32,196 nucleotides of DNA from Rhodobacterales bacterium CG15_BIG_FIL_POST_REV_8_21_14_020_59_13. Lineage in GTDB: Bacteria; Pseudomonadota; Alphaproteobacteria; Caulobacterales; Maricaulaceae. The stretch spans positions 1-32,196 of the forward strand of contig PFFX01000155.1 of assembly GCA_002783385.1 (NCBI GenBank), in the 5' to 3' direction. The position numbers were made by a program, and so were the translations under genes. A model generated the notes under the pieces. It was given only the letters and a program-made list of their open reading frames with translations. It was not told where the DNA came from and made no database searches. Positions 4,351 to 29,299 of the stretch are shown one piece after another (the stretch's first letter is position 1; the number at the start of each line of letters is the position of its first letter).

Positions 4351-4356
4351 GAGAGG

Positions 4357-5670
4357 TCAGTCCTTCTCTTTGGTGTCGATCGAGGAGCCTGCGCCGTGGC
4401 CGTCACCGGAGCGCACAGTGTGCGCGGCGAGCGAGGCCGAGTGGCCGAGGCTCTGGCGCTGCTTCATGGATTTGGCCCAGGCGGGCGGGCCGTTTTCGGG
4501 TGCTGGACCGGAGGGCGTGGTGCCTGGTGCAGGCACAATGCGGCCGCCCATATTGCCGACCGACGCCCGTGCACCCTCGCGGAAATTGCTCTTGGCGCTA
4601 TCTGCCGCTTTGCGCAGTGGCGACATGGCTGCGCCTCCTGCGGCGCGGCCGACACCGGCCATACCGCCTGCGACGGCCGCACCGCCGCTCTTGCCAGCGG
4701 AACCGGTGGCATAGGCCATGGTTGCTCCGCCTGCGGCGCGCGATGTGCCTTGCGCGGCCGACGAGGCGGCGCTCGCCACCGCCCCGCCAGCCAGCTTGGC
4801 TCCAGCGACACCGCCCACCGCCGCGCCGCCCGCCAGCAGGGCGGTGCCTGCTGCTGCGCCAGCGCCCAATTGCGGCCCGCCTGCGACGATGCCGTTAGCG
4901 ATGCCGGGGCCAAAGATGCCCAGACCGAGAAGCGTGAGGCTTGCAAGCACGATGGCAAGCGCATCCTCGATGGTCGGCTCGCCGGGGATCGCGCTGGTGA
5001 ATTCAGCAAAGAGCGTCGAGCCGATGCCGATGATCACCGCGAGCACCAGCACCTTGATGCCCGAAGACACGACATTGCCGAGCACACGCTCGGCTAGGAA
5101 GGCGGTCTTGCCGAACAGACCGAAGGGGATGAGGATAAAGCCAGCGAGCGTGGTCAGCTTGAACTCGATCAGCGTGACGAAGAGCTGGATCGAGAGGATG
5201 AAGAAGGCGATGATCACCACCGCCCAGGCGAGCAGCAGGATGATGATCTGCAGGAAATTCTCGAAGAAACCGACATAGCCCATCAGATCGGCGATGGATT
5301 CGATCAGCGGCCAGGCGGCATCGATCCCGACCTGGGCCACACGCCCGGGCTGTAACAGGTCGGCGGCACCCAGCCCCGAACCGCTGGCTTTGAGGCCTAG
5401 GCCTGCAAAGCTGTTGAAGATGATGTTGGCGAGCGCGCTCCAGTTACCGATGATATAGGCAAAGATGCCGACGAAGAGCGTCTTCTTGACGAGCCGGGCG
5501 ATGATGTCGTCATTCTCGCCCCAGCTCCAGAACAGGGCAGCCAGCGTCACATCGATCACGATCAGCGTGGTCGCGATGAAGGCGACCTCGCCAGAGAGCA
5601 GGCCAAAGCCGCTGTCGATATATTGGGAGAAGATCGCCAGAAAGCGATCGACGACGCCGGTGCCGCCCAT
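4357..5670 (-). CDS. trbL: P-type conjugative transfer protein TrbL (VirB6-like)
   Basis: Polytopic membrane protein; start taken at MGGTGVVDRFLAIFSQYIDSGFGLL rather than the longer ORF start; Ala/Gly-rich C-terminal tail. Confidence 0.9.
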   Translation of the reverse strand: MGGTGVVDRFLAIFSQYIDSGFGLLSGEVAFIATTLIVIDVTLAALFWSWGENDDIIARLVKKTLFVGIFAYIIGNWSALANIIFNSFAGLGLKASGSGLGAADLLQPGRVAQVGIDAAWPLIESIADLMGYVGFFENFLQIIILLLAWAVVIIAFFILSIQLFVTLIEFKLTTLAGFILIPFGLFGKTAFLAERVLGNVVSSGIKVLVLAVIIGIGSTLFAEFTSAIPGEPTIEDALAIVLASLTLLGLGIFGPGIANGIVAGGPQLGAGAAAGTALLAGGAAVGGVAGAKLAGGAVASAASSAAQGTSRAAGGATMAYATGSAGKSGGAAVAGGMAGVGRAAGGAAMSPLRKAADSAKSNFREGARASVGNMGGRIVPAPGTTPSGPAPENGPPAWAKSMKQRQSLGHSASLAAHTVRSGDGHGAGSSIDTKEKD

Positions 5671-5671
5671 G

Positions 5672-6019
5672 TCAGTCCTCCCCTCGTTGGTCGCCAACCG
5701 GGGCTGACACCGGGAGGTGCGGCGCGTCCGGCGGCGGAGGATCGGCGAGCCCGGAATAGGCCTCTGGATGATCCACGCCCAGGAAGCGGCGGCGCTTTTC
5801 GGCCCAGGCCGCACGGCAATCGGGTGAGGACAGCGCCAGTTCGCCCATCTCTGCGCAGGCCTTGATCTGTAAGGGCAGCGGGTCGCCGTCGGGCACCCAT
5901 GCGATTGGCACGGGGCCCGCGCGCGGGGCAGGCTCCTCGCGCATCTGCACGAGCGTCATGGCAAAGGCGAGCCCGACGAAGACGGCGGCACCGATGCGCG
6001 CGAAGAGCTTGCTGTCCAT
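5672..6019 (-). CDS. TrbK-like (putative alternative entry-exclusion) protein
   Basis: Short protein with N-terminal TM and 'KACAEMGELALSSPDCRAAWAEKRRRFLG' Cys pair, in the trbJ-trbL interval. Confidence 0.75.
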   Translation of the reverse strand: MDSKLFARIGAAVFVGLAFAMTLVQMREEPAPRAGPVPIAWVPDGDPLPLQIKACAEMGELALSSPDCRAAWAEKRRRFLGVDHPEAYSGLADPPPPDAPHLPVSAPVGDQRGED

Positions 6020-6025
6020 GGCCGA

Positions 6026-6772
6026 TTACTTCGACCCGCTGGGCAGGTAGCGCGGACGATTGGCCAGAAAACGCCGCAGCTGTTCGCGCGCCTGCGCCTT
6101 GGCCGCGGCGCGCTCTGCCGCATCGAGCGTTTGCGCCCGGCTCAGCGCCGCCAGCGTCGCGGTGAGATCGGCGAGTTGGCCTGCCTGCACCGCCAGCAGC
6201 TGGTTGCCCGCCTGCGCGGCCTGCAAGGCGCCGGTGGCCGACTGGCTGGCGCTGACCAGTTCATTCACCGCTGTGCGCGAGCCTTCGATATTGGCGACCG
6301 CGCCCGCCTGGACTTTCATGGCGTCCTCGAACCCGGCGACGCTGTTCTGCCAGCGTGCCTCTGCGCCATTGACCATCGCCTGCTGCGAGGCACCCAGCGG
6401 GATATTCTTGTATTGCGCATCGAAGGTGGTTTCGATTGCGCGCACATCATAGGCGATGCGCTGGGCTTGCTGCAGCAATTGCTGGGTCTGCCGGATCTGG
6501 TCCTGTAGGGGCTGGAGCACGGTAAGCGGCAGGCTCTGCAAATTGCGCGCCTCGTTGACGAGCGAGTTCGCCTGGTTCTGCAGCATGCGGATCTGATTGT
6601 TGATCTGCTCAAGCGTGCGCGCAGCGGTGAGCAGGTTCTGGGCATAGTTCGTCGGATCATAAACAATGCCGCCGAACTGCGCGTGTGCGGGCGCAGAAAC
6701 CAGAGCGCCGGTTCCAGCACAGGCAAGCGCGACACCGGTCAAAAGGCAGCGGAGGTATTTACGGGGGATCAT
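6026..6772 (-). CDS. trbJ: P-type conjugative transfer protein TrbJ (VirB5-like)
   Basis: Signal peptide, 'GGIVYDPTNYAQNLLTAARTLEQINNQIRMLQNQANSLVNEARNLQSL'. Confidence 0.92.
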   Translation of the reverse strand: MIPRKYLRCLLTGVALACAGTGALVSAPAHAQFGGIVYDPTNYAQNLLTAARTLEQINNQIRMLQNQANSLVNEARNLQSLPLTVLQPLQDQIRQTQQLLQQAQRIAYDVRAIETTFDAQYKNIPLGASQQAMVNGAEARWQNSVAGFEDAMKVQAGAVANIEGSRTAVNELVSASQSATGALQAAQAGNQLLAVQAGQLADLTATLAALSRAQTLDAAERAAAKAQAREQLRRFLANRPRYLPSGSK

Positions 6773-9231
6773 GGGAGGTCTCCTTGTTGGGGGCTGGGGA
6801 TAAGGGATTTTGCTTCGCGGGCACCGAGCAAGTCGGCAGCCCAGTCGAGGCCGCGATGGCGCAGCCAGGCGGCGGCGAACCCTGCGCGGCCGGAATTCTC
6901 GATGATCCGCGCAATGGCGAGCTGGTCGCTCTTCGACGAGGCGGCGGTGAAGGCGAGCGCGACCTCTCCAAGACCCAGCTCGAACAGACGGTTGCCGCGT
7001 GCTGACTGACAGTAATAGTCGCGCTTGGGAGTTGCCCGGCTGAGGATTTCGATCTGGCGATCATTGAGACCGAAGCGGCGATAGATGCTCAGGATTTGCG
7101 GTTCGACCGCGCGCTCATTGGGCAGGAAGATACGGGTCGGGCAGCTTTCGATGATCGCGGGCGCAATCGCCGATGTCTCGATATCGGCAAGGCTCTGCGT
7201 GGCGAAGACGACGCTTGCGTTCTTCTTGCGCAGGGTCTTGAGCCATTCGCGCAATTGCGCAGCGAAGGCCGGGCTGTCGAGCACCAGCCAGCCTTCATCG
7301 ATGATGATCATCGTGGGCGACCCGTCGAGCCGCCCTTCGATCCGGTGGAAGAGATAGGAGAGCACCGCCGGTGCCGCGGCCGATCCGGTCAGCCCCTCGG
7401 TCTCAAAGGCCTGGAAGCTGCCTTCGCCAAGCCGCTCGCTTTCGGCATCAAGCAGGCGCCCAAATGGCCCGCCGATGCAATAGGGCGCGAGTGCCTGCTT
7501 CAAGCCCTGCGATTGGAGCAGGACGGCGAGGCCCGTCAGCGTGCGTTCGGCAATTGGCGCGGTCGACAACGAGGTCAGTGCCGACCAGAGGTGGTCCTTG
7601 GTGACCGGATCGATGGTGACGCCTTCGGAAGCAAGGATGGCCTGCAGCCATTCGGACGCCCAATTGCGTTCTCCCGGCTCGTCGATCCGCGCGAGCGGTT
7701 GCAGCATCACGGCCTCGTCGCCGTCCTCTGAAAGGCTTGATCCCAAGTCCTGCCAGTCACCGCCGCAAGCGAGCGCTGCCGCGCGGATCGAGCCACCAAA
7801 ATCGAAGGCGAAGATTTGCGAGCGATTATACCGGCGGAATTGCATTGCCATCATGGCAAGCAGCACCGATTTGCCCGCGCCGGTCGGGCCGACCACCAGA
7901 GCGTGCCCGACATCGCCAACATGAAGCGAAAAGCGGAACGGGGTCGAGCCTTCGGTCTTCGCATAGAAGAGCGGCGGTGCATCAAGATGCGCATTGCGCT
8001 CCGGCCCGGCCCAGACCGCCGATAGCGGCATCATGTGGGCCAGGTTCAGCGTGGAGATGGGAGGCTGGCGGACATTGGCATAGACGTGCCCCGGCAGTGA
8101 TCCGAGCCAGGCTTCGACCGCGTTCATGCCTTCGGTCACACAGGTGAAATCACGGCCCTGAATGACCTTCTCGACCAGACGTAGCTTTTCAGCAGCGAGC
8201 GCGGCATCCTCGTCCCAGACGGTGACGGTGGCCGTCACCAGCGCCAGCCCGACATGATCCGCGCCCAGTTCCTGCAAGGCCGTATCGGCATCCTCGGCCT
8301 TGTTGGCCGCGTCGCTGTCGACCAGCACCGAGGCCTCGTTGGTCATCACCTCTTTGAGGATCGCGGCGACCGATTTGCGCTTGGCAAACCATTGGCGGCG
8401 GATTTTGGAGAGCAGCCGCGTGGCGTCGCTCTTGTCGAGCATGATCGCCCGGGTCGACCATCGATAAGCGAACCCTTGTGCGTTGAGTTCATCGAGCAGG
8501 CCGGGAAAGGTCGCGCTCGGAAAGCCGATCACGCTCAGTGTGCGCAGATGGGCCGCGCCTAGACGCGGCTCAAGCCCGCCAGTGAGCGGCTCGTCGGCGA
8601 GCAGCGCATCCAAATGCATCGGGGTTTCGGGAACGCGGACGGACTGCACCCGCGTCGAGATGCAGCTGTGAAGATAGGTCAGCGTGTCGCCGTCATCGAG
8701 CCATTGGGCTTCGGGGAAAAAGCCCTCGAACAGGCGCAGCAGACGGTCAGTTCGATCCACGAAGCCGTCAAGCAATTCACGTGGGACAATGCCTTTCTCA
8801 GCCTTGCCCTCATAAAGCCAGCTTTCCGCACGCGCTGCCTCTTCGGCAGGCGACATCCACAGGAAGGTAAGGAAATAGCGGCTCTCGAAATGCGCGCCTT
8901 CTTCGGCGAACTGTGCGGCGCGTTCGCGCTCGACCAGCGCCGATGCCGGATCGGGAAAGTCACAGACCGGATAGTCCAGCGCAGGGCGGCGCACCGCTTC
9001 AACGAAGATCGCCCAGCCAGATCCCAACCGCCGCAATGCGCTGTTGAGCCGCGCGGTGGTTGCGACCAGTTCGGCAGGCGTTGCGCTGTCGAGGTCTGGC
9101 CCACGAAAGCGCGCCGTCCGCTGAAAGCTGCCGTCCTTGTTTAAGACGACGCCGGGCGCAACGAGCGCTGCCCAAGGCAGGAAGTCCGCGAGCCTGTCGG
9201 CCTTGTTTCGGTATTCGCGAAGCGAGAACAT
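6769..9231 (-). CDS. trbE: TrbE/VirB4-family conjugal transfer ATPase
   Basis: Walker A 'VVGPTGAGKSVLLAMMAMQF', Walker B 'PTMIIIDEGWLVLDSPAFAAQLREWLKTLRKKNASVVFATQS'. Confidence 0.95.
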   Translation of the reverse strand: MFSLREYRNKADRLADFLPWAALVAPGVVLNKDGSFQRTARFRGPDLDSATPAELVATTARLNSALRRLGSGWAIFVEAVRRPALDYPVCDFPDPASALVERERAAQFAEEGAHFESRYFLTFLWMSPAEEAARAESWLYEGKAEKGIVPRELLDGFVDRTDRLLRLFEGFFPEAQWLDDGDTLTYLHSCISTRVQSVRVPETPMHLDALLADEPLTGGLEPRLGAAHLRTLSVIGFPSATFPGLLDELNAQGFAYRWSTRAIMLDKSDATRLLSKIRRQWFAKRKSVAAILKEVMTNEASVLVDSDAANKAEDADTALQELGADHVGLALVTATVTVWDEDAALAAEKLRLVEKVIQGRDFTCVTEGMNAVEAWLGSLPGHVYANVRQPPISTLNLAHMMPLSAVWAGPERNAHLDAPPLFYAKTEGSTPFRFSLHVGDVGHALVVGPTGAGKSVLLAMMAMQFRRYNRSQIFAFDFGGSIRAAALACGGDWQDLGSSLSEDGDEAVMLQPLARIDEPGERNWASEWLQAILASEGVTIDPVTKDHLWSALTSLSTAPIAERTLTGLAVLLQSQGLKQALAPYCIGGPFGRLLDAESERLGEGSFQAFETEGLTGSAAAPAVLSYLFHRIEGRLDGSPTMIIIDEGWLVLDSPAFAAQLREWLKTLRKKNASVVFATQSLADIETSAIAPAIIESCPTRIFLPNERAVEPQILSIYRRFGLNDRQIEILSRATPKRDYYCQSARGNRLFELGLGEVALAFTAASSKSDQLAIARIIENSGRAGFAAAWLRHRGLDWAADLLGAREAKSLIPSPQQGDLP

Positions 9232-9510: not shown

Positions 9511-9842
9511 CAGACGAGCGCTCCGCCTCCGAAGGAAAAGAAGGAGAGGAAGAAAGACGATGCGGCAAAGGCGATCGACAGGCCGAAAACGATCTGGATC
9601 AGCCGCCGAAACCCGCCCGACGTGTCGCCGAAGGCCAATGCCAGCCCGGTGGCGATGATGATGATCACCGCGACGATCTTGGCGACCGGTCCCTGGATCG
9701 ATTCAAGGATCGCCTGCAGCGGCGCTTCCCATGGCATGGACGAACCGGCGGCGTGGGCGGGCGTTGTAACGACGAGCGCCACGCCGGTAGTCAAGACAAG
9801 AGCCGACAGGCGCGAGCGCGCCCGTGATAAAATGCGGATCAC
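9510..9842 (-). CDS. trbC: TrbC/VirB2-family pilin
   Basis: Signal peptide then two hydrophobic segments 'ILESIQGPVAKIVAVIIIIATGLALAFGDTSGGFRRLIQIVFGLSIAFAASSF'. Confidence 0.9.
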   Translation of the reverse strand: MIRILSRARSRLSALVLTTGVALVVTTPAHAAGSSMPWEAPLQAILESIQGPVAKIVAVIIIIATGLALAFGDTSGGFRRLIQIVFGLSIAFAASSFFLSFFSFGGGALV

Positions 9843-10819
9843 GAAGGGTCTCCTTGAGTTGGGGAAAGTGGCGCGAGGACATATTCGCCTGCCGCATCGA
9901 GCCCGCGGACCTCGGCCAGTTCGGACAGCCGCCGTCCGGTGCCATCGCGCACAAGCACAGCAATAACGTCGATGGTCTCGGCGATCAGCGCGCGCGGCAC
10001 AGTGACCACGCTTTCCTGAATCAGCTGTTCGAGCCGCCGCAGCGTGCCTAGCGCAGTCCCAGCATGGATCGTGCCGATCCCGCCCGGATGTCCGGTGCCC
10101 CAGGCCTTGAGCAAGTCGAGCGCTTCTGCGCCGCGCACTTCGCCTATTGGAATACGGTCAGGCCGAAGACGTAAGGCCGAGCGGACCAGATCGGACAGGG
10201 TGGCAACGCCATCCTTGGTCCGCAGCGATACGAGATTGGGCGCGGCGCATTGCAGTTCGCGCGTATCTTCGATCAGGACGACGCGGTCAGAGCTGGAAGC
10301 AACTTCGGCCAGCAGCGCATTGGTAAGCGTGGTCTTGCCGGTGGAAGTACCGCCAGCGACCAGAATGTTCTTCCGCGACACAACGGCATCGGCCATCAAA
10401 TCGGCCTGCCAGTCTGCCATGATGCCCGCAGCGACATAGTCAGCCAGCGTAAATACCGCGACTGCAGGCTTGCGAATGGCAAAGCTGGGCGCTGCAACCA
10501 CCGGCGGCAGGAGCCCTTCAAAGCGTTCCCCGCCCTCGGGCAGCTCTGCCGAAACACGCGGAGCACCGCCATGAACCTCGGAACCGACATGGTGCGCGAC
10601 CAGTCGAATGATGCGCTCGCCATCGGCGGCGCCCATAAGGCAGTCAGTTGCGGCAAGGCCTTCCCCGAGACGGTCGACCCAGAGTCGACCGTCCGGATTG
10701 AGCATGACTTCGATCACTGCGGGTTCTTCGAGCCAGCGAGCAATCTCTACGCCCAAAGCCGTGCGCAACATGCGCGCGCCGCGCGACGATGCTTCGGATC
10801 GGATCGGAATAACGCTCAT
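9839..10819 (-). CDS. trbB: TrbB/VirB11-family P-type conjugative transfer ATPase
   Basis: Walker A '[19 protein letters not shown]', '[23 protein letters not shown]', '[38 protein letters not shown]'. Start set at [19 protein letters not shown]. Confidence 0.95.
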
Positions 10820-11097
10820 GGGCTGCCCCGGATTGCGGCAACCGACCATCGGCTGCGCTTGCGAGGCAGATCAAAGAGACATCAGATTGCCGTCAGGCAA
10901 CAAGCTTTTGCTGCGAGGAAAGCGCAGCGTAGCCAAAGTATCGCTAGCGTAACGGGCCGGTCAGTCAAACGCGTCAACAATCCGAATCAAACCTGCTATT
11001 CGAGATGAACTCGTCCGATTTCAATTAGATCGATATTTGTCATCGCAACACAAGTCGCGTTGCCGTTGCGGGGCGGCTGTGCTTTATCGTGTTCCCG

Positions 11098-14000
11098 ATG
11101 ACCACCCCTGCCGATATCGACAAATTCATTTCCCAGTGGCGCGATACCGGCGGCAGTGAGCTTGCCAATACGCAGAGCTTTATCAACGGCCTGTGCGATC
11201 TGCTAGAGGTAGAACCGCCCACCGGCAGCCGCACTGACGACGTGCATAACGATTATGTCTTCGAACGCCGCGTCTTTCAGGACAATGGCGACGGCACACA
11301 GAGCTTCGGCCGCATCGATTGCTATAAGCGCGGTTGTTACATCCTCGAAGCCAAGCAGGGCAGCGAGGCCGACCGCGCGGCAGCGGATAAAGGCGAGGAC
11401 GATCTCGATATCTTCGGCCAGACCGCCAGCGCCCGCGTCAAGCGTGGCACCGCCCGGCGCGGCACTCCCGGTTGGGCCAAGGCGATGGTGCAGGCCAAGG
11501 GCCAGGCCGAACGCTATGCCAAGGCGCTTCCCGTTGACCATGGCTGGCCGCCAATCCTGCTCGTCACCGACATCGGCTATTGCATCGAGGTCTATGCCGA
11601 CTTCACCGGGACCGGCAAAGCCTATGCCCAGTTCCCCGACCGGGCGCGCTACCGGATCATGCTGGAGGATTTGCACGACGACGACGTGCGAGAGCGGCTC
11701 CGCGCTATCTGGACCGATCCCAAGAGCCTCGACCCCGCTGCCCGCGCTGCTCGTGTTACCCGCGACATTGCCGATCTGCTGGCCACAGTCGCCCGGCGCC
11801 TTGAGAAGCGGGGCTATAATGCGGAGACCACCAGCGGTTTCCTGATGCGGGTGTTGTTCACAATGTTCGCGGAAGACAGCGGACTGATCCCGGAAGGCAA
11901 ATTTACGCAGCTCCTCAAAGACCAGCGCGCACACCCCGAACATCTGGAGCATCAGCTCTCAGCACTGTGGGCGGCGATGGACAAGGGCGAGTTCTCCCCT
12001 GCGCTGGGCGTGCCGCTGAAGAAATTCAACGGCTATCTGTTCAAGGAACGCACCGCGATCCCGCTGGATGCAGAAGAGCTGGAAGTGCTGATCAAGGCGG
12101 GCGAGCACGTCTGGACCGAGGTGGAGCCGGCGATCTTCGGGACGCTGCTGGAACGCGCGCTCAACCCCAAGGAGCGGGCGAAGCTTGGCGCGCATTACAC
12201 CCCGCGCGCCTATGTCGAGCGGCTGATCGGCCCCACGATCATGGAGCCGCTGCGCGCCGATTGGGACGGGGTACGCGGAGCCGCGGCGACCCTGATCGAA
12301 GAGGGGAAGGAGGACGAGGCCAAGGCTTTTGTCGAGGCATTCCATTCTCGGCTTGCCCAGACGAAGGTGCTCGATCCTGCCTGCGGCACAGGCAACTTCC
12401 TCTATGTCGCCTTGGCGCGCATGAAGGAGCTTGAGGGCGAGGTGCTCGATCTGCTGGTCGAGCTGGGCGACGACCAATATGTCGCCGAGCTAACCGGCCA
12501 CACCATCACGCCCGAAAACTTCCTCGGGATTGAGGTAAACGAACGTGCCGTCGAAATTGCGCAACTGGTGCTGTGGATCGGTTATTTGCAATGGCATTTC
12601 CGCGTGAATGGTGCCGACCGCACGCCGCCCGAACCCATCCTGCGCGACGTGCGGACGATTGAACATCGCGATGCCCTGATTGACTACGACGACAAGCTTC
12701 TTGAACGCGATGACGCGGGCAAGCCCATTTCTCGCTGGGATGGCGAGACGATGAAGCTCCATCCCGTCACGGGCAAAAAGGTGCCCGACGAGGGCGCGCG
12801 GGTTGAGGTGTATCGCTACGTGAAGCCCCGTGCGGCGAAGTGGCCCAAGGCCGATTTTATTGTCGGGAACCCGCCATTCATTGGCGGCAAGGACGTGCGG
12901 GACCGTTTGGGAGATGGCTATTTCGACGCGCTGTTCGCCACCACTGATGTGCCTGAAAGCGCCGATTTTGTCATGCATTGGTGGGACAAGGCGGCAACGG
13001 CGGTTCGCAAGGCGGGTACGCGGCGGTTCGGCTTCGTCACCACCAATTCGATCACGCAGGTGTTCAGCCGCCGGGTGATTGCCAAACATCTCGACGCGAA
13101 GAGCGGCGTTGGCCTGAGATTTGCCATTCCGAACCATCCATGGGTGGACGAAAAGGATGGTGCCGCCGTGCGCATCGCCATGACGGTGGCTGAACCGCAG
13201 GGCAAATCAGGCCGCGAGCCGGGAATGGTGCAAACCGTCATTGATGAAAGCGGCGCGCCGCACACCATTGCGTTTGGCATCAATATGGGCCTGATAAGCG
13301 CTGATCTGCGGATCGGGGCCGATGTTTCCTCGGCCCGCCCGCTCAAGGCGAACGACAAGCTCGCTTCTCGAGGCGTTCAATTGATGGGCAATGGCTTCAT
13401 CGTGACGCCGGAGCAGGCAGAGGGTCTGTCGGTTCAAATCACTAATAAGCAACCAGCCAACATCCGCACCGGAGTTAAAGATGGCGATGCCGTGATCTTC
13501 GACTATCGCAATGGCCGTGATCTCGCTGCGCGCCCGCGCGGGGTGAAGGTGATCGACCTCTACGGCCTCAGCGAGACCGAAGTGCGCAACAAGCATCCGG
13601 CAATCTATCAGCACCTCTCGCATGCAGTTCGACCACAGCGTGATGGGCAAGCTTCCAAGAGCAAGACGACCGACGCGAAGCAATATGCTGAAAAATGGTG
13701 GCTCTTCGGCAAACCACGTCCTGAAATCCGCAAGGCCTTATGCGGAGTATCGCGCTACATCGCCACCATCGAGACCGCAAAACACCGGGTGTTCCAGTTC
13801 CTGGCCATGTCGATCCTTCCGGATAACATGCTGGTTTGTATCGCACTCGATGATGCGTTTCATCTCGGCGTGCTGTCGAGCCGGATCAGTGTACTGTGGG
13901 CACTTGAGGCTGGAGGGACACTGGAGGATCGTCCGCGCTACAATAAGACAGCGTGCTTTGACCCCTTTCCCTTCCCTAGGGACGTTGACGAATCGCTCAA

Positions 14001-14625
14001 GGACAAAATCCGGGCCGAGGCCGAAGCACTCGATGCGCTGCGCAAGCGGGTTCTGAAAGAGCACGAGGACCTGACCCTCACTAAGCTTTACAATGTGCTT
14101 GAAGCCCTGCGGGAGGGCCGCGCGCTGACCGAGGCCGAGCGCGACATGCATGATCGCGGGCTCGTCACCCTGATCCGCCAGCACCACGACGCCATCGATG
14201 CGCTGGTTGCCGAAGCCTATCGCTGGCCCGTTGACCTCTCAGATGAGGAAATCCTCATCCGCCTCGTTGCGCTCAACAAGGAACGCGCCGCCGAGGAAGC
14301 CCGTGGCCTGATCCGCTGGCTGCGCCCCGAATATCAGAACCCGCCGTCCGACGATTGGCTCGACACCGGGTCAGGCGTCAAACCGGCAAAGCCCGTGCTC
14401 GCAGCCGAACATGTGCCGGACAACATCATCCCATGGCCCGGAACGCTGCCCGAACAGGTCAGCGCAGTGCAGTCGATACTCTCGACCGCACAAACGCCGC
14501 TCGCACCGCAGGACGTTGCCCGTTCCTTCAAGGGCAAGCGCGCCGCCACTGTCCGTCCCGTGCTCGAGGCGCTGGCTGGTATCGGCATGGCCCGTCGGCT
14601 GAAAGATGGGCGGTATGCGGCGTGA
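11098..14625 (+). CDS. MmeI-like type IIG restriction-modification enzyme (N-terminal PD-(D/E)XK, gamma-class N6-adenine methylase, C-terminal winged-helix-like tail)
   Basis: N-terminal nuclease motif 'GRID-CYKRGCYIL-EAK' (D74-X9-E84-A-K86, nt 11317-11355); SAM motif I 'VLDPACGTGNF' (12367-12399); motif IV 'NPPF' (12868-12879); C-terminal 'QVSAVQSILSTAQTPLAPQDVARSFKGKRAATVRPVLEALAGIGMARRLKDGRYAA'. Confidence 0.88.
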   Translation: MTTPADIDKFISQWRDTGGSELANTQSFINGLCDLLEVEPPTGSRTDDVHNDYVFERRVFQDNGDGTQSFGRIDCYKRGCYILEAKQGSEADRAAADKGEDDLDIFGQTASARVKRGTARRGTPGWAKAMVQAKGQAERYAKALPVDHGWPPILLVTDIGYCIEVYADFTGTGKAYAQFPDRARYRIMLEDLHDDDVRERLRAIWTDPKSLDPAARAARVTRDIADLLATVARRLEKRGYNAETTSGFLMRVLFTMFAEDSGLIPEGKFTQLLKDQRAHPEHLEHQLSALWAAMDKGEFSPALGVPLKKFNGYLFKERTAIPLDAEELEVLIKAGEHVWTEVEPAIFGTLLERALNPKERAKLGAHYTPRAYVERLIGPTIMEPLRADWDGVRGAAATLIEEGKEDEAKAFVEAFHSRLAQTKVLDPACGTGNFLYVALARMKELEGEVLDLLVELGDDQYVAELTGHTITPENFLGIEVNERAVEIAQLVLWIGYLQWHFRVNGADRTPPEPILRDVRTIEHRDALIDYDDKLLERDDAGKPISRWDGETMKLHPVTGKKVPDEGARVEVYRYVKPRAAKWPKADFIVGNPPFIGGKDVRDRLGDGYFDALFATTDVPESADFVMHWWDKAATAVRKAGTRRFGFVTTNSITQVFSRRVIAKHLDAKSGVGLRFAIPNHPWVDEKDGAAVRIAMTVAEPQGKSGREPGMVQTVIDESGAPHTIAFGINMGLISADLRIGADVSSARPLKANDKLASRGVQLMGNGFIVTPEQAEGLSVQITNKQPANIRTGVKDGDAVIFDYRNGRDLAARPRGVKVIDLYGLSETEVRNKHPAIYQHLSHAVRPQRDGQASKSKTTDAKQYAEKWWLFGKPRPEIRKALCGVSRYIATIETAKHRVFQFLAMSILPDNMLVCIALDDAFHLGVLSSRISVLWALEAGGTLEDRPRYNKTACFDPFPFPRDVDESLKDKIRAEAEALDALRKRVLKEHEDLTLTKLYNVLEALREGRALTEAERDMHDRGLVTLIRQHHDAIDALVAEAYRWPVDLSDEEILIRLVALNKERAAEEARGLIRWLRPEYQNPPSDDWLDTGSGVKPAKPVLAAEHVPDNIIPWPGTLPEQVSAVQSILSTAQTPLAPQDVARSFKGKRAATVRPVLEALAGIGMARRLKDGRYAA

Positions 14626-14641
14626 CGGGTGAAACAAGCCA

Positions 14642-17509
14642 ATGAAGGAAGATGATTTCAAGCTGTGGCTGACCCGTGCGGGATATGCGGAGAACACTGT
14701 CAACACCCAGATGACCCAGGCCCGCCGACTTGATCAGGCGTATGGCGATCTTGACGAGCATTTTGACCGGGACAAGTTCACCGCCATCGCTGCAACGCTG
14801 AAATACTCCGCTCAGGACAAGCGCGATCAGGCACCCAACCCCTCCAAGCTCCCAATCGATGGGGACCTGTATTCCAACCTCGCAAGTTACAGGGCCACCC
14901 TGAATTTTTACCAGCGTTATCGCGACGATGATCAGGCGGGTCGAAAACCCAGAACCCCAAAACTGGGGGATGATCAGTTCTTCTCCGAAGTTAACCGCAT
15001 GATGGGCGTGTTCAAGGAACGGATGCCCGACTTCGCAGGCTTCGCGGAAGAGATAGGCCAGTTCTGGGAAACCGAGGGCAGCTACAAGCGCGATGCGCGC
15101 GACAGCGTGATCGCCGCTGCCACCAATTTCGACCAGACCGAAGAAGAATGCGGCCGCGCAGTCTACAAGGCGCTGGTGCAGGGCACACAGCAGGGCCTCC
15201 CGCTCAGCTGGCGCACGCAGGCGGAAATCTCCAAGGCACCTGCCGATCTCCAGACCCGCTTCTACGAAACGGTTGCCCGCCTGGCGCGCCTGGAAGCTGG
15301 TGACAACCAAGGCTTGCTGGAAAGCGCCCGAGAGCTTGAAAGCCTGAAGCAAGCAGGCCTGCCGGGTATGCGGCGGGGCGAGGTGCTCAGCATTGCGATC
15401 TCGGTTTACGGCACGGTCAACGTGAATGATGCCTGCTGGTTCAAAGTCCGCACCTTCGACCGGCTTGGCAAGGCCCTGATGGGACACAAATTCTTCGCCT
15501 CACCGCAATTCGAGCTGGCGGACTTCGAGAAGTTCCAGTGGGCGATGAACCGGATTCGTGACCAGCTCGATGACTGGAACTGGCGGACCGGCAGCCTGAC
15601 CGATGTGCAAGGTTTCATCTGGGTTGCCATGGCAGAAAACTGGGAGGAACCGGAAGTGTCGGACCTGACGCGCGAAGCAGTTGAGGAGGCCATGGACGAG
15701 TGCGAGGAGATCGGCGTCGAGGCCTTCCTCGCCAAATACCGGTTCGGCAAGCCGCGCGATTATTGGACCCGGCGGGAGCCGGAAGGGTTTCTGTTCCCGG
15801 CCAAGGCAATTGTTGGCGCGGCCTATGGCTTCATGCCCGAGGGCAAGCCGCAGAGCGCCAAGGAGTTTTACGGCGGCTATGGAGAGCAGGCCGCAAACGG
15901 GATCTTGCAGCGCTTAGGCTTTGAGATCGTGAGCACGAAAGGGGGCGAGATGGCTCCGGCAACCGAAGGCAAGCCCGCGATAGGGGCAAAACCAACCAAC
16001 CTGATTCTCTATGGCCCGCCCGGCACCGGCAAGACCTATGCCACGGCCAGCGAGGCGGTGCGGCTGTGCGATGGCACTGTCCCCGCCGATCGCGACGAAT
16101 TGATGCTGCGCTATCAGGAATTGTCCCGCAAGGGGCGGATCGGATTCGTAACTTTCCATCAGAGCTTCAGCTACGAAGACTTCGTCGAGGGGCTTCGGCC
16201 ACAGCAGGCGGAAACCGGTGACGAAGGCTCGCCCGACACTACGGGCTTCTCACTGGTGGCACGCGATGGTGTGTTCAAGGAAATGGCGCGGGTCGCAGGC
16301 GAGAACAAGGGCCGCGCGCTCTCGCATGATCTTCCGCCGTTCGATGGAAGCCGAAAGATCTTCAAGATGTCGCTTGGCAGGAGCTGGGCGTCCGAAGATG
16401 ATGCCATTTACCAAGGCGCGCTGGAGGGAGGCTACGTAGTCCTTGGATGGGGCGGCGAAGTCGACTGGTCGGATCAGCGGTTCGACGATTGGGAGGCGAT
16501 CAAGGAGCGCTGGCGGCAAGACCATCCCGATGCTCATGGCAACGACCCCAACATGTCGCAGATCTATACCTTCCGCAGCAACATGGAGGTCGGATCGCTG
16601 ATTGTCATTTCGGATGGCAACATGAAGTTCCGCGCCGTTGCCGAAGTGACCAGCGACTATCGCTTCGTTCCTGGACCGGACGGCGAATACAATCACCGCC
16701 GCAGCGTACGCTGGCTGTGGCACACCGAGGACAGTCTTCCGCGGGAACGCATCTACAAGAAACAGCTTAGCCAGGTTTCCGCATACCAGATGCAGGGACG
16801 GCAGGTGATTTGGGATGCGCTCGAGCAGATCGTGGCCTCGGGCGGCGATGCCGTGGCAACCAGCGGTGAGCCGGAACCCTATGTCCTCATCATCGACGAG
16901 ATCAACAGGGCCAACATCTCCAAGGTATTCGGCGAACTGATCACCCTGCTGGAGCAGGATAAGCGCGCGGGACAGCCTAATGCACTGAGCGTGAAGCTGC
17001 CCTATTCCGGCGAAGAATTCTCAGTCCCGGCCAATCTCCACGTCATCGGCACGATGAACACAGCCGACCGCTCAATCGCCCTGCTCGACACGGCACTGCG
17101 ACGCCGGTTCGAATTCCGCGAAGTGATGCCCGAGCCCGATGTCCTCGAAGATGCTGCTGCGCCGACAGGGGTCGATCTGCCCATGGTGTTGCGCACGCTG
17201 AACGAGCGGATCGAGTATCTTTTCGATCGCGAACACCAAATCGGCCACGCCTACTTTATGGCCTGCAAGAGCCGGGCAGACGTGGATGCGTGCATGCGAG
17301 TGCGAATCATTCCCCTCTTGTCGGAATACTTCTTCGATGACTGGAACAAGATTGCACTGGTTCTTGGTGATCGGGACGGGAGCAGATTCCTCGAGCGGGT
17401 CGAGCTCAAGCCGCCGGTCGGGCTCGATGAAGACGGCGAGGCACCCTCTCGATGGCGATGGAATGTTCGATCGGCATTCCCGCCGGATGCCTACTCGGGC
17501 CTGTCGTGA
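14642..17509 (+). CDS. McrB-like AAA+ GTPase with inserted EVE/PUA-like domain
   Basis: Walker A 'LILYGPPGTGKT' (16001-16036), 'GFVTFHQSFSYEDFVEGL', Walker B 'YVLIIDEINRANISKVFGELITLLE' (from 16880), McrB signature 'GTMNTADRSIALLDTALRRRF'; insert with 'IYTFRSNMEVGSLIVISDGNMKFRAVAEVTSDYRF...YNHRRSVRWLW'. Confidence 0.9.
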   Translation: MKEDDFKLWLTRAGYAENTVNTQMTQARRLDQAYGDLDEHFDRDKFTAIAATLKYSAQDKRDQAPNPSKLPIDGDLYSNLASYRATLNFYQRYRDDDQAGRKPRTPKLGDDQFFSEVNRMMGVFKERMPDFAGFAEEIGQFWETEGSYKRDARDSVIAAATNFDQTEEECGRAVYKALVQGTQQGLPLSWRTQAEISKAPADLQTRFYETVARLARLEAGDNQGLLESARELESLKQAGLPGMRRGEVLSIAISVYGTVNVNDACWFKVRTFDRLGKALMGHKFFASPQFELADFEKFQWAMNRIRDQLDDWNWRTGSLTDVQGFIWVAMAENWEEPEVSDLTREAVEEAMDECEEIGVEAFLAKYRFGKPRDYWTRREPEGFLFPAKAIVGAAYGFMPEGKPQSAKEFYGGYGEQAANGILQRLGFEIVSTKGGEMAPATEGKPAIGAKPTNLILYGPPGTGKTYATASEAVRLCDGTVPADRDELMLRYQELSRKGRIGFVTFHQSFSYEDFVEGLRPQQAETGDEGSPDTTGFSLVARDGVFKEMARVAGENKGRALSHDLPPFDGSRKIFKMSLGRSWASEDDAIYQGALEGGYVVLGWGGEVDWSDQRFDDWEAIKERWRQDHPDAHGNDPNMSQIYTFRSNMEVGSLIVISDGNMKFRAVAEVTSDYRFVPGPDGEYNHRRSVRWLWHTEDSLPRERIYKKQLSQVSAYQMQGRQVIWDALEQIVASGGDAVATSGEPEPYVLIIDEINRANISKVFGELITLLEQDKRAGQPNALSVKLPYSGEEFSVPANLHVIGTMNTADRSIALLDTALRRRFEFREVMPEPDVLEDAAAPTGVDLPMVLRTLNERIEYLFDREHQIGHAYFMACKSRADVDACMRVRIIPLLSEYFFDDWNKIALVLGDRDGSRFLERVELKPPVGLDEDGEAPSRWRWNVRSAFPPDAYSGLS

Positions 17510-18816
17510 TCCAGCGCTCGGTCCTCGAATGGCAGTCCCTGCCATATGGCGATGGGCATGACGAAATCCCCGTCTGGGCGGCAGACCAGCTTGCGGGCGT
17601 AGCGAAGCAGTCTCCGCTGGGCGGTGAAAGCGGCGGACGCATACTGACGCTGGGGCGAAAATCTCTGCGCGCCGGGCAGGTGGTGGGGATTGTAGCGGGA
17701 GAAGGCTGCACACTGGAAATACTCCCGAAGATCGATTTCCCTGCGGAGGCTGACGACGCGCACAAGCGCGGGTTGATCCGTGAAAGGCTGGTGCATCTGC
17801 TTGCCGTCGCTCTGGACATCCAGATTGATGGCGGGGCGATGACCGAACTTGGCTGGCAGAAGGACAGCCTACTCGAAATCCTCATTCGGCTGTTCAGCAC
17901 AAAGCTGCTGGATGCCGTCCGTCAGGGCGTTCCCAGACGCTACATCGACTGTGAGGATGACCTTCGAGCGCTAAGAGGACGCCTCGATATTGGGCGTCAG
18001 TTCACCGTTCTGGCGGTTGACCCGTCCAAGCTTGCTTGCCGATATGACGAGCTTTCGAGCGATACAGCTTTGAATCAAATCATGAAGGCAGCAGTCGATA
18101 GACTCGGTCGCCTTGCGCGCACGAGTGATAATCAGAGGCGGTTATCGGAACTGGCGTTTGGTTATGCCGAAGTTTCGTCGGTTCCGCCGAGCGCCCTACG
18201 CTGGCAGGATGTTCAGCTCGACCGCACAAATGCGCGATGGAAGGATCTGTTCGCGCTTGCGAAGTTCATTCTAGGCGATCGATTTCAGACCACCTCGATG
18301 GGCACTCAGGCTGGCTTCTCGCTACTTTTTGAGATGAACACTCTGTTCGAGCAATATGTCGGTCGGATGATGCGCCGCGCTCTCGTTGGCAGCGGTCTGA
18401 CCGTTCATTTACAGGGCGGGCGGCTGTTCTGTCTGGAATCTGTCGAGGAGGGCCGGCGCCTCTTTCAAACCAAGCCTGACATATTGATCAAGGATGGTGG
18501 TCGGGTAATCCAGGTCATCGACACAAAATGGAAACGCATTTCCCCGCAAATCGAAGACGCCAAACAGGGCATCTCCCAAGCTGATGTCTACCAGATGATG
18601 GCTTATGGTCAGCTCTACGAGTGTGAGGCACTGACTCTGCTTTACCCGCACCATGGCGAGCTCTTAGAAGTGCCGGGTGTGACAGGTACATTTGCGGTGC
18701 CGCACAGCCTCCAGCGTCTGTCGGCTGCAACTATCGATATTTCGCGCAAAACAGGAATCAAGGATGCGCTCAGGCAGATTGCTGGTTACCATTTATCAGA
18801 TGCGAGGTTGTCGTAG
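17506..18816 (+). CDS. McrC-like 5-methylcytosine restriction subunit (PD-(D/E)XK nuclease)
   Basis: GTG start at 17506 overlapping the McrB stop as GTGA; 'VPRRYIDCEDDLRALRGRLDIGRQF', 'KPDILIKDGGRVIQVIDTKWKRI' catalytic D-X(n)-DTK motif; adjacent to McrB. Confidence 0.88.
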   Translation: MIQRSVLEWQSLPYGDGHDEIPVWAADQLAGVAKQSPLGGESGGRILTLGRKSLRAGQVVGIVAGEGCTLEILPKIDFPAEADDAHKRGLIRERLVHLLAVALDIQIDGGAMTELGWQKDSLLEILIRLFSTKLLDAVRQGVPRRYIDCEDDLRALRGRLDIGRQFTVLAVDPSKLACRYDELSSDTALNQIMKAAVDRLGRLARTSDNQRRLSELAFGYAEVSSVPPSALRWQDVQLDRTNARWKDLFALAKFILGDRFQTTSMGTQAGFSLLFEMNTLFEQYVGRMMRRALVGSGLTVHLQGGRLFCLESVEEGRRLFQTKPDILIKDGGRVIQVIDTKWKRISPQIEDAKQGISQADVYQMMAYGQLYECEALTLLYPHHGELLEVPGVTGTFAVPHSLQRLSAATIDISRKTGIKDALRQIAGYHLSDARLS

Positions 18817-19387: not shown

Positions 19388-21892
19388 TTACACGCGCGGA
19401 GTAATGCGCGCGGCGGTACGGATATCCGCGATTTGGGTTCCGAGCGCCTGAAGATTTTGCCGCATATCATTGAATACCGGTTGCTCAGACGCCGGATCAC
19501 TTATCGTCACGATCGCAGTGAACGGTACGCCTTCCTCGGGCATCACCTCACCAGCGCGAGTGAGATAGTCGACGAAGAGGCGCCAGTTGGAAGACGGCCC
19601 GACCCCTTTCGGAAACGTCTTCGCCAAAACTTTCACCGGGCTCCATTTCAGATCGTGTTCAATGAGCTCGGCTTCAACGGCAGGGGATTCCCGCTTTGAC
19701 GGCAGGTACAACGGCTCGAGCCGCCCTTTCCAGCCTCCGGCGGCCTGTTCTTGTTGCAGCGTCGCATTGATATTGACCCTCACGAACTCAGATCCGAAGC
19801 GCGCATCGAGCGGTGGCGTCGATATCAACGTGATCTTTGCCCGGCCGCGACATTTGCCGCCCGGGCCGACGAGAGAGGCAGGCCAAGCGAACCGGAAGTT
19901 AATCTGCTGATCGCGCTGGATGCGCGAGGCAAAAACCAGCGTGATCGCGTGATCGCCAGTTTCTAGGATCCGATCCGCTGACGGCGGCATTCCAAATCCC
20001 ACAAAATGCCTGGCAATCGGCGCAAGTTCTTTTGACTGCATAGTCGTGGGTATTTCTGCATGATGCACCAGCAGTCCGATCAAAGTCTCGCGAGACACCT
20101 CGCCTTCGATGGCATGATCTAGGACGGCAGCAGTTTTCGCCGCAAGCGGCGCAGCATAGCTCGTACCGCAACCGTCGATGATGGTGCCGTCGGGCAGGAT
20201 CGAAAATAGGCCATGGCCGAGCTCGGAATGCTGAGTGCCGGACCCGCCGATATGCGCGAGGTCGGGCTTGACGCCCGCACGCATTCCGGGCCCCCTGCGG
20301 CTGAACCGTGTCGGTGCGAAAGCCATACACCCGTCGTGTCCAGGAGGATTGAGCGCTGCGACCGCGACGTTGCGTGCGCTCTCCGCAGGGGTCAGCAAGC
20401 CATCGTTCCGGGCATTCACAAGATTCGTGAGCGCTGTGGCGGCGTCCGCAGGCCATTCCGGACGAAGGTCTTGAGGCGCGATGTTGCCTGCAGAAATGAA
20501 TACGATGGCGTTATTTGCTTCGGCGATCTGATCAAGCCGAGCGGCATGCTGACTGTATCGGTCGGGCGTCGCTGGTTGCAGAATATTGAGGCTCATATTG
20601 AATACGCGCACCCCGTGGCGGGCCTGCGCATCGGAAACGGCGTTGGCCATTTCGTCGAAGAACTGGGGCAATCCTTCAGGATAATATGATGCAAAGGCGC
20701 CAGCTTTTCCCTCGTTCGGGAAAACAGCGACGTCGACCAATTCCGCTCCGTCCGGTTCGGGACAGGTTTCTAGTCCGTTCAATGCGCCCCCAACGGCGGC
20801 CAAGCCTCCGATAAAGGTGCCGTGCGAAAGATCGGAATCTTCGCTAGCCAAGATGTCCCAGCGATCGATGACCCAGTCCGATAGTGCATCGCTTATCCCG
20901 CCATCGATGATGCCGAGCCGCGGATGCGTTCTCCGAGTATCTCGCGCGGGCATAGCCAAGTCGGTTGGCCACGCCCGGGCTGCACCTTCCGCTGTCGCAG
21001 ACCTCACGACAATGCCTGGAAGCTCAATACGCCTTACGAGCGGGTGCTTTTCCAGAAAGCGCAGCAGTTGCGTGTGGCGCTCAATATCGGGACTGAAATC
21101 CGGTAACTCGCGTCGGCGTTCGGTGGCAGACGTATCATCCAGACGGAGAATAGGTTGATCGGCCGACTGATCCAGTCGCACCGCGAGTACCGCTTGCTTG
21201 TCGCGATGAAAGGACAGCCGTTCGACCGCAAGCCCATGTCCAAGATCTCTAAACCCTCCAATGAAAGTCTCGATAAGGCGCCTGTGGCCCGTGTCCAGCC
21301 GATCCCATTCCGATCGGGGAGGAGGGCTTTCGAACAGTTCGACCTGATAACTGCTGCCCGTCATGGGATTAGCAAGCCAAGCCACGGCTTCCTCAACCGA
21401 GAAGCTTCGCCGATCCGCCGCGCTATAAATTTCGATACGATCGATGGCACCCGTTTCGCTCTTTCGCGACGTCGGGTGCGGTTCTTCCTTCTGCTTATAT
21501 TCGTTGAAGCGCATCTCAGTGTGCGTTTCCGCTTTCGCGATTTCCGCAGCGACTTGGAGGATTGTCGACGGGCGCGCCTCGATGAGCATCACGCCAAGAT
21601 CGCCTCCTCCGACTATGGGCGTGCGATCGCTGCGAAACAGACTTTGGACCGGGCGATGACTCTTGGCCCAAGCTTCCCTTCGCAAGATGACCTTTACGTA
21701 CCCGACGTCGCCCTGTGACTGCGCGCTGAGCACTCCTGAGATCGTCTCGATCTGCCCAATCAGGGTATCGCGGTGTGTGCGGAACTCGGCATCGCGATGT
21801 GCGAAGAAATCCTTCCGACCGCCGCCACCGCCAGCTTCGCGCGCTTGCTCATAATTTTCAGGATTGAGGACAATCTGGATCGGGCTAGCCAT
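19388..21892 (-). CDS. ietS: S8 subtilisin-like serine protease, IetS-like anti-phage component
   Basis: Catalytic triad contexts 'LGIIDGGI' (Asp), 'LSHGTFIGGL' (His), 'GTSYAAPLAAKTAAV' (Ser), oxyanion Asn 'ISAGN'; overlaps an upstream AAA ATPase gene by 8 nt (ATGGCTAG), the ietAS architecture. Confidence 0.85.
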   Translation of the reverse strand: MASPIQIVLNPENYEQAREAGGGGGRKDFFAHRDAEFRTHRDTLIGQIETISGVLSAQSQGDVGYVKVILRREAWAKSHRPVQSLFRSDRTPIVGGGDLGVMLIEARPSTILQVAAEIAKAETHTEMRFNEYKQKEEPHPTSRKSETGAIDRIEIYSAADRRSFSVEEAVAWLANPMTGSSYQVELFESPPPRSEWDRLDTGHRRLIETFIGGFRDLGHGLAVERLSFHRDKQAVLAVRLDQSADQPILRLDDTSATERRRELPDFSPDIERHTQLLRFLEKHPLVRRIELPGIVVRSATAEGAARAWPTDLAMPARDTRRTHPRLGIIDGGISDALSDWVIDRWDILASEDSDLSHGTFIGGLAAVGGALNGLETCPEPDGAELVDVAVFPNEGKAGAFASYYPEGLPQFFDEMANAVSDAQARHGVRVFNMSLNILQPATPDRYSQHAARLDQIAEANNAIVFISAGNIAPQDLRPEWPADAATALTNLVNARNDGLLTPAESARNVAVAALNPPGHDGCMAFAPTRFSRRGPGMRAGVKPDLAHIGGSGTQHSELGHGLFSILPDGTIIDGCGTSYAAPLAAKTAAVLDHAIEGEVSRETLIGLLVHHAEIPTTMQSKELAPIARHFVGFGMPPSADRILETGDHAITLVFASRIQRDQQINFRFAWPASLVGPGGKCRGRAKITLISTPPLDARFGSEFVRVNINATLQQEQAAGGWKGRLEPLYLPSKRESPAVEAELIEHDLKWSPVKVLAKTFPKGVGPSSNWRLFVDYLTRAGEVMPEEGVPFTAIVTISDPASEQPVFNDMRQNLQALGTQIADIRTAARITPRV

Positions 21893-23087
21893 TCGTCACC
21901 TCATTCTCTGACTTTGCTGCGCGGCCCAGCTGTCGGCTGACCGTCGATTTGTCCTTGCCTGCTATTTCGCCGATATCGGCCATCGAGAAGCCAAGAATCG
22001 GGTCATCGCGCATCGCTCTAAACAGGTTGCTCGTGTCGTCGAAAAGCAGGGCCCGCCGTTCGCTCTGGACCCGTGCGGCATTGAGCGTAGCGAACTGGCG
22101 CAAGGTATCGAGGAGGCCGCGCTTATCTTCAGCCCGAACCGTCGTCGCTTTCTTGTAGGTGCGAACGAGCGACTCGATCTCGGCGCCTGTGGAGCCTTCG
22201 GTGAACCATGCGATTAGCCGTAGATGCACGTCGGGAGCTTTGATTGGTGGCATGAAATTCGCAGCGATTGCTTTGCGCATTTCAAAATCAGGTTTCGGAA
22301 TTTCAAGCTGGACTTCGAACCGGCGCCAAACGGCTGGATCAAGCAGCTTCGGGTGATTTGTGATGCCGATTGTGAAACCCACATCGCGCCGGATGTCGAG
22401 ATTCTGCAAAAGAGCATTCACTACGCGCTTGATTTCACCGACTTCCTGCGGGTCATCTCGAACTTTGGCGATCGCGTCAAATTCATCAAGAAGGAGAATG
22501 CACCGATGCCGATTGGCAAACGCAAACAGATTGCCGATATTCCGTGCTGTGGTTCCAAGAAATGACGACACCAGACCATCAAGCTTGACCAACACGACTG
22601 GCAAATCGAGTTGTTGCGCAATCCATAACGCTAGGCGCGTTTTGCCCGTCCCGGGCGCGCCATAAATAAGGCAGGTTTTGGATGGCCGAATGTCGATTTC
22701 CGACAGAACATCGAAATTCGCCCATTCCTCGATAATCGTCCGGATTGCTTGGCTTACCCTTGAATTGAACAACGGCGGCGACGCCTGAATATCGCTAGGA
22801 AAGAAAATATCGGCAAGCGCCGCCGACGTCTCGCGATCGACAGGTAGAGGCGTGTTGCGTGTCAGAACCTCGCCAGCAACGATCGATTTCGACCGCTCGA
22901 TGCGACTGGGTGAGAGCTCTTTGGTTCGATCCGCAGTCGTTAAAATGCTGGACAGCGCCGCCGACTGTTTTGGGTCGCCATCCTTCGCGATCGCGTCACG
23001 CAGGCGCTCGATCTGTTTGCGCGTCGCTGGCGATGCCTCTGCGATTGCTGCTCGACAGAGCGCTTGGATGATTGAGAAGTGTTCCAT
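21885..23087 (-). CDS. ietA: AAA+ ATPase, IetA-like anti-phage component
   Basis: Walker A 'LIYGAPGTGKTRLALWIA', Walker B 'CILLLDEFDAIAKVRD', sensor 'GITNHPKLLDPAVWRRFEVQLEIP'. Start chosen at MEHFSIIQALCRAAI because the upstream ORF extension overlaps a promoter-like sequence. Confidence 0.85.
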   Translation of the reverse strand: MEHFSIIQALCRAAIAEASPATRKQIERLRDAIAKDGDPKQSAALSSILTTADRTKELSPSRIERSKSIVAGEVLTRNTPLPVDRETSAALADIFFPSDIQASPPLFNSRVSQAIRTIIEEWANFDVLSEIDIRPSKTCLIYGAPGTGKTRLALWIAQQLDLPVVLVKLDGLVSSFLGTTARNIGNLFAFANRHRCILLLDEFDAIAKVRDDPQEVGEIKRVVNALLQNLDIRRDVGFTIGITNHPKLLDPAVWRRFEVQLEIPKPDFEMRKAIAANFMPPIKAPDVHLRLIAWFTEGSTGAEIESLVRTYKKATTVRAEDKRGLLDTLRQFATLNAARVQSERRALLFDDTSNLFRAMRDDPILGFSMADIGEIAGKDKSTVSRQLGRAAKSENEVTNG

Positions 23088-23129
23088 AAGCAGTCCCATA
23101 TGCGGTTGCGTCGAGTAGGCGCTATGATG

Positions 23130-23158
23130 CGTATAACGAGCGATATGATGCATATCAA
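23130..23158 (-). promoter_or_regulatory. Candidate sigma70-type promoter for ietA (TTGATA-N17-TATACG)
   Basis: Minus strand reads TTGATA tgcatcatatcgctcgt TATACG, about 40 nt upstream of the proposed ietA start. Confidence 0.4.
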
Positions 23159-23625: not shown

Positions 23626-24022
23626 CGACGAAATTAGAGAGCCGCTGGCCATTCTCAACGCGCCGCGCCAAAGCAGCAACGAAGTGTTCAAAGCGCTGCT
23701 CGCCGGCAGCTTTGGCCGCAGCTGTTGCTTCGTCTGGCATCGAGGGGGTCATCCCGAGCCAGAAGCGCACAAATAGGGCAATAGCCTCGTTGCCGACCTC
23801 GACGTGATAGTCGAGCTTGTCGAACTGCCGCGAAATACGATCCAGACGCCGACTGAACGCAGCTTCCATTCGTTCCGATCCGTCCGGTGATAGGAATGAT
23901 GCAACCGCTGCCTCGACCACCGATGCCTGCGATACCCGCTTGCGCCCGGCGTAGTCTGCCAGTTGCTGCGAGAGGTCTGGAGGCAGCCGAAAAGTATGCT
24001 TGATGCGATTGCCCTTGCTCAC
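23600..24022 (-). CDS. Ribbon-helix-helix (CopG-like) conjugation-associated protein
   Basis: 'KHTFRLPPDLSQQLADYAGRKRVSQASVVEAAVASFLSPDG' RHH-like; 4-nt overlap with traG. Confidence 0.8.
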   Translation of the reverse strand: MSKGNRIKHTFRLPPDLSQQLADYAGRKRVSQASVVEAAVASFLSPDGSERMEAAFSRRLDRISRQFDKLDYHVEVGNEAIALFVRFWLGMTPSMPDEATAAAKAAGEQRFEHFVAALARRVENGQRLSNFVDEKVRQAP

Positions 24023-26004: not shown

Positions 26005-26100
26005 GGTGCCTCCTTTCGGGAGGCAGGAGGCCCAACGAGGTCTGCAAATCAAGCGCTGCGCTTGGGAAGCGCAGTCTGGCGAAGGCAAAGAAACGGGCGG

Positions 26101-27235: not shown

Positions 27236-27253
27236 ATCGCTTCTCCTGATGCG

Positions 27254-27283
27254 TTTATAAGCATCATGTGGTGCTTTTGTCAA
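27254..27283 (-). promoter_or_regulatory. Strong sigma70-like promoter TTGACA-N18-TATAAA upstream of the RES/Xre pair
   Basis: Minus strand TTGACA aaagcaccacatgatgct TATAAA; 6/6 at -35 and 5/6 at -10; contains a 16-bp near-palindrome. Confidence 0.65.
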
Positions 27284-27307
27284 GATTTGTGTCATTGGCC
27301 TACCTCC

Positions 27308-29059: not shown

Positions 29060-29299
29060 GTGCAATGAAACCGGGCGACGGCGCATTGGCCGTTGAAATT
29101 GTGAGAGAATTCGCCAGAAGCGACGGCAGGGCATATGCCAAGACGGCGCATATTGCCCAATAGAACCAACCACCTGCACCCCGGCCGACGGCGGTGCTTT
29201 TATCTCGCCATCCTCCTTTCCCCTTTCTGACGCTTCCCACCATCCTTCGCCCAGCTTCGCCATCGGACGAAGCCGGGCGCGAGAGCATGATTGCGGGCA

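Follow-up and report, generated by a model that had tools for sequence, protein, structure and literature searches.

MmeI, a type IIL restriction-modification (RM) enzyme of 919 aa, has the catalytic nuclease residues D70/E80/K82, and the shared target recognition domain (TRD) of MmeI-type enzymes diversifies readily (PMC4833311). McrBC systems with EVE-superfamily specificity domains (Bell 2020, 2024) have an NxxD-class McrB, a specificity domain inside the GTPase domain and an McrC of PD-DxK type. Insertion of specificity domains into McrB GTPase domains was reported by Bell et al. 2024, together with one McrBC branch accompanied by predicted DNA methyltransferases and another by type I RM, in possible operons (PMC11090510). 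The same census found the association of type IV systems with DNA methyltransferases surprising and deferred it to later work. McrBC of the archaeon Thermococcus gammatolerans (TgMcrBC) carries an m6A-reading YTH domain at the N-terminus of McrB. We know of no methyltransferase (MTase) partner of this system. LlaJI, LlaI and PcaRCI hold MTase gene(s) together with McrBC-like genes, the products of which restrict unmodified DNA as the cognate arm, as described for LlaJI (PMC1459862) and PcaRCI (PMC8989522); LlaJI and PcaRCI carry 5mC MTases. Complementary protection by a modification-based defence and a type IV enzyme is provided by BREX and BrxU on pEFER (PMC8565348).

The window, meaning the whole analysed stretch of 32,196 nucleotides, contains a trio of genes for a type IIL enzyme, McrB and McrC. 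The first protein resembles MmeI in domain order, D-X9-E-X-K nuclease and NPPF gamma-class adenine MTase, and differs in its length of 1175 aa, a C-terminal extension and the presence of McrBC 16 bp downstream. The trio differs from the McrBC of Bell 2020 and 2024 in its partner, a bifunctional single-chain type IIL enzyme, and in extra helical and ScoMcrA-head-like N-terminal parts of McrB. TgMcrBC is the nearest solved structure for both McrB and McrC and has a YTH-type reader, but in the window the stretch from Walker A to Walker B, not the N-terminus, holds the reader-like fold. BREX and GmrSD-family enzymes occupy in the pEFER pair the places taken here by type IIL and McrBC. The association of McrBC with RM genes and DNA methyltransferases is already published, and the trio is a specific variant of it; a report of a type IIL and EVE-McrBC trio was not found in a non-exhaustive literature search. 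The features of the locus are as follows.

11098–14625, + strand: MmeI-like type IIG/IIL RM enzyme, 1175 aa (Pfam, PADLOC, PDB match 5hr4)
11317–11355, + strand: PD-(D/E)XK nuclease motif D74-X9-E84-A-K86, spaced as D70-X9-E80-M-K82 of MmeI
12373–12393, + strand: SAM-binding motif DPACGTG, residues 426–432 (sequence)
12868–12879, + strand: N6-adenine methyltransferase motif NPPF, residues 591–594 (sequence)
13588–13980, + strand: TRD, residues 831–961 (PF20466; dN/dS and identity profile)
14626–14641, + strand: 16-bp spacer from type IIL stop to McrB start (sequence)
14642–17509, + strand: McrB-like AAA+ GTPase, 955 aa (PDB 6ut3–6ut8, AAA_5, fold match to TgMcrB)
14642–15631, + strand: N-terminal all-helical region of McrB, residues 1–330 (AlphaFold model, mostly pLDDT 70–90)
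15659–15931, + strand: weak ScoMcrA-like N-terminal head segment, McrB residues 340–430 (5zmm, E 0.0017)
16013–16036, + strand: Walker A of McrB, GPPGTGKT (invariant in the McrB alignment)
16331–16864, + strand: EVE/YTH-like reader-type fold inserted in the AAA+ domain (separate fold, PDB matches)
16883–16906, + strand: Walker B of McrB, VLIIDEIN (McrB alignment)
17054–17074, + strand: McrB signature MNTADRS, NxxD class (McrB alignment; motif classes of PMC11090510)
17506–18816, + strand: McrC-like nuclease subunit, 436 aa (PF10117, 2.6e-72; TgMcrC, 7e-19)
18475–18528, + strand: McrC catalytic motif PD...DTK with intact PD-DxK (sequence aligned to TgMcrC)

Properties of the three proteins

The type IIL gene starts with ATG at 11098 and stops at 14625. 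It encodes nuclease, spacer, m6A methyltransferase, TRD and C-terminal extension in one polypeptide. MmeI_N, MmeI_hel, MmeI_Mtase and MmeI_TRD all score above the Pfam cut-off, in this order; the PADLOC model REase_MTase_IIG scores 1484 bits, and MmeI (5hr4, E 9e-39) is the sole PDB match. The single-chain domain order, together with intact D-X9-(E)XK and NPP(F/Y) motifs, is that of a type IIL RM enzyme. All 47 full-length relatives in the alignment (47/47) keep the D-E-K nuclease triad, the NPPF motif and, with minor variants, DPACGTG; the original prediction of an apparently intact D-X9-EAK nuclease is thus upheld. On sequence evidence the enzyme probably writes m6A at a short site of its own.

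McrB matches TgMcrB (6ut3–6ut8, E 2.5e-58), EcMcrB and Pfam AAA_5 by sequence, and its model matches TgMcrB by fold (3.7e-19). The Walker A and B motifs and the MNxxDRS signature of the McrB GTPase are present, as are DUF2357 and PD-(D/E)xK in McrC, which agrees with membership of the pair in the McrBC type IV systems. Assignment to CoCoNuT was rejected: MNTADRS is of the NxxD class, whereas CoCoNuT McrBC is of the NxD class with coiled coils. The N-terminal helical region has no Pfam match. The ScoMcrA-head-like segment is also matched by PADLOC mREase_IV (7e-5) and is of low confidence in the structure model. Domain placement was left out of use in view of the pTM of 0.38 for the whole McrB model.

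An EVE domain is scored in McrB by no Pfam model; Pfam searches of McrB sub-regions, insert included, gave nothing usable even at lax thresholds, and fold comparison was required. PADLOC PDC-S02 models match McrB residues 591–710. Modelled alone, the insert (16331–16864) reaches pLDDT 90. Its nearest PDB folds are YTH domains (YTHDF2, 1e-5), MJECL36 (2p5d, 3.8e-4) matches as well, and against EVE/YTH-superfamily structures Foldseek gives probability 1.00 and TM about 0.45–0.5. By its model, the insert is an EVE/YTH-superfamily fold and would be expected to read a modified base. Of the EVE-containing McrB first proposed, the superfamily stands; the label EVE rather than YTH was dropped, TM being about 0.45–0.5 against both.

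The coordinates of the three genes, the 16-bp gap, the GTGA overlap of McrB and McrC (17506–17509) and the same-strand packing were confirmed as predicted. The GTG start of McrC is backed by the homologue in comparison locus L024, which starts at the same GTG. The gap between the type IIL and McrB genes is 16, 16 and 15 bp in the window, L022 and L024, respectively. A sigma-70-like promoter was not detected at the gene junctions by a scan that covers some promoter types and performs little above chance. From their arrangement, the three genes probably constitute one cotranscribed operon.

Mobility, distribution and exchange of specificity parts

The trio is flanked by trbB (9839–10849, − strand) and by traG/relaxase genes (24019–29263), with other trb genes at 1506–9231; a trb-type integrative or conjugative element thus carries it as cargo. 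The IetS (subtilase) and IetA (AAA ATPase) defence pair lies in the same cargo region (19388–23153), convergent to the trio. A RES-domain toxin and an Xre-like antitoxin are encoded between traG and the relaxase gene (26101–27295). McrC-family genes other than that of the trio were not found in the assembly.

Co-occurrence of the three genes, as the original prediction supposed, extends beyond the window: L023 is identical to it, L022, at 93% over 21 kb, represents the same element, both elements being from other MAGs, and L024 has only the trio in common with the window, in an unrelated context. Since the trio alone is common to these two contexts, it has been transferred as one piece on at least one occasion. 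Three distinct trio alleles (window, L022, L024) are present in the data. The trio is rare: McrB or McrC was detected near none of 45 other loci of this MTase family (0/45; sampled genomes and plasmids, profile search of fetched flanks, a few of them short).

Most of about 55 EVE-McrBC loci are without an MTase. A complete adenine RM system is located directly upstream, on the same strand, at 6–7 of about 55; these neighbour counts come from a sample of genomes and plasmids and are raw with respect to phylogeny. The systems are of type IIL (window/L022, L024), type III (L086, L138), ISP (L151) and type I (L220), and EVE-McrBC repeatedly follows adenine RM genes of these four types at a distance of no more than 60 bp. 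L053, with an McrC 91% identical and no MTase relative in the genome, is uncounted, the MAG contig ending at the McrB gene. Types IIL, III and ISP, the initial same-strand RM partners of EVE-McrBC, are not known to mark more than one strand, which hinted at a common requirement. Such a one-strand-methylation rule for RM partners was dropped on account of L220, in which a type I RM system (both strands) lies 49 bp upstream of EVE-McrBC.

Between the window and L022 the EVE insert (McrB 521–740) has 100% aa identity at dS 0.15, MTase residues 1–830 have dS of about 0.3–0.36, and the TRD (831–960) has 70.7% aa identity, dN 0.22 and dS 0.96. The elevated dS of the TRD suggests an imported segment. 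In MTase residues 841–885, L022 and L024 are 89% alike and the window deviates from both; this stretch and the base-contact residues differ among the three alleles. Contacts were mapped by a weak TRD sequence alignment to MmeI (domain i-Evalue 0.34; PF20466 matches the same stretch; the L022 gene is designated L155 and the L024 gene L156 therein), in which the predicted contacts to base 4 read M911/R947 (window) and K911/V947 (L022), and those to base 6 are E943/R945 in the window and L022 and G/D in L024. From these base-4 and base-6 differences, three MTase specificities are predicted for the three trios.

Between the window and L024, MTase residues 1–620 are about 90–92% identical and the EVE insert is 33% identical. 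Between the window and L025, which has no MTase, the EVE insert is 85.5% identical and the McrB N-terminus 25% (unrelated). An McrBC keyed to the mark of its neighbour should show joint changes of reader and writer, which is not what is seen: the specificity parts of reader and writer change or are swapped independently. The AAA+-inserted EVE-like module may be a specificity cassette that is exchanged much as TRDs are in RM enzymes. The specificities are separated by natural allele pairs, with the same reader and a different MTase in window/L022 and a related MTase and a different reader in window/L024; with these pairs the choice between linked logic and stacked layers can be tested directly, and they already speak for stacked layers. 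A hint of separate histories of MTase and McrBC in L024 (MTase dS about 0.7, McrBC saturated) was dropped, as NG86 saturates.

Interpretation of the trio

The trio is probably a stacked, complementary pair of RM and type IV restriction, the arms of which share transcription and mobility and not target recognition; BREX with BrxU is a precedent for such layers. The type IIL enzyme would place m6A on self DNA at a short site of its own and cut incoming DNA that is unmarked. McrBC would bind a foreign base modification by the EVE/YTH-like reader embedded in its AAA+ domain and translocate with GTP, upon which McrC would cut. Phages escaping the type IIL arm by base modification would thereby become exposed to the McrBC arm, and McrBC would have to tolerate the m6A made by the neighbouring enzyme. 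Both enzyme activities and protection against phages are presumed. The proposal that the locus combines restriction of unmodified and of modified DNA is plausible. It is favoured that McrBC reads a mark other than that of its neighbour. Counted against stacked layers are the movement of the trio as a unit into two contexts and the conserved 15–16 bp spacing, which could reflect functional dependence of the arms.

The independent change of reader and writer favours stacked RM and type IV layers over a composite RM system of the LlaJI/LlaI/PcaRCI kind, in which McrBC would be the cutting arm against unmodified sites and the MTase would protect, one of the options originally put forward for this locus. 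The trio shares the gene order MTase-McrB-McrC with these systems and the use of McrBC-like subunits as restriction arms with cognate MTases has precedent, but the cognate MTases of LlaJI are 5mC enzymes with separate R subunits, whereas the MTase of the trio is fused to an intact nuclease motif of its own in 3/3 alleles. The McrB-like subunit of H. pylori LlaJI has an N-terminal B3 domain, and McrB here has an EVE/YTH-like reader fold besides its N-terminal helical region of no Pfam match. Both modules are also common without each other, and MTase specificity changed beside an unchanged reader (window/L022) and the parts vary independently in L024 as well. In a composite, both specificities would act on one site and be expected to change jointly. 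Because of the fused nuclease and this independent variation, the composite is hardly probable. Chance neighbourhood, that is, accretion of cargo in a defence island with a junction of no selected value, is unlikely: IetAS beside the trio and the many different neighbours of EVE-McrBC would fit it, but the same junction recurs with 15–16 bp spacing in two unrelated contexts, and EVE-McrBC repeatedly stands close behind adenine RM genes.

Two readings connect the arms through the mark itself. McrBC could be a guard that kills cells or invading DNA gaining competing methylation and so enforces the mark of the element. Host killing by McrBC upon foreign genome methylation has been described (PMC2614495), and an m6A-type reader fold is plausible for such a role; however, the EVE insert is constant beside an MTase of changed specificity, so the reader is not tuned to the neighbour's mark, and a guard is very improbable. 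The nearest solved folds of the insert are m6A readers, and m6A is the kind of mark the neighbour should make; a conflict or link between the two is therefore kept as an alternative of low probability. In its joint form the type IIL enzyme would cut unmarked DNA and the YTH-like McrBC would cut DNA whose m6A lies in a wrong context or occupies both strands, the one-strand pattern of the type IIL enzyme being self; little likelihood is given to this scheme.

Other neighbours of the two modules

EVE-McrBC usually occurs either by itself or, at 14 of about 55 loci, downstream of a TM0106 RecB-like nuclease/helicase. TM0106 is directly upstream of EVE-McrB in L025, L026, L027, L029, L032, L034, L139, L140, L145, L148, L149, L223 and L224, and a WYL gene is often near such loci. 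No partner of this McrBC is more frequent than TM0106, and the two may form a distinct conserved system. L138 (3332–15223) carries type III Mod and Res, EVE-McrB, McrC and the TM0106 nuclease/helicase in one same-strand run. The closest standalone relative of the MTase is that of L099 (76%), in which the downstream slot is occupied by a DUF5655 gene instead (7087–8001, − strand; with a 4-bp overlap of the MTase stop), which would fit an exchangeable slot behind this MTase. In L024 the type IIL gene of the trio is preceded, about 80–120 bp upstream on the same strand, by a gene for an Hsp70-like protein of 836 aa (3868–6378).
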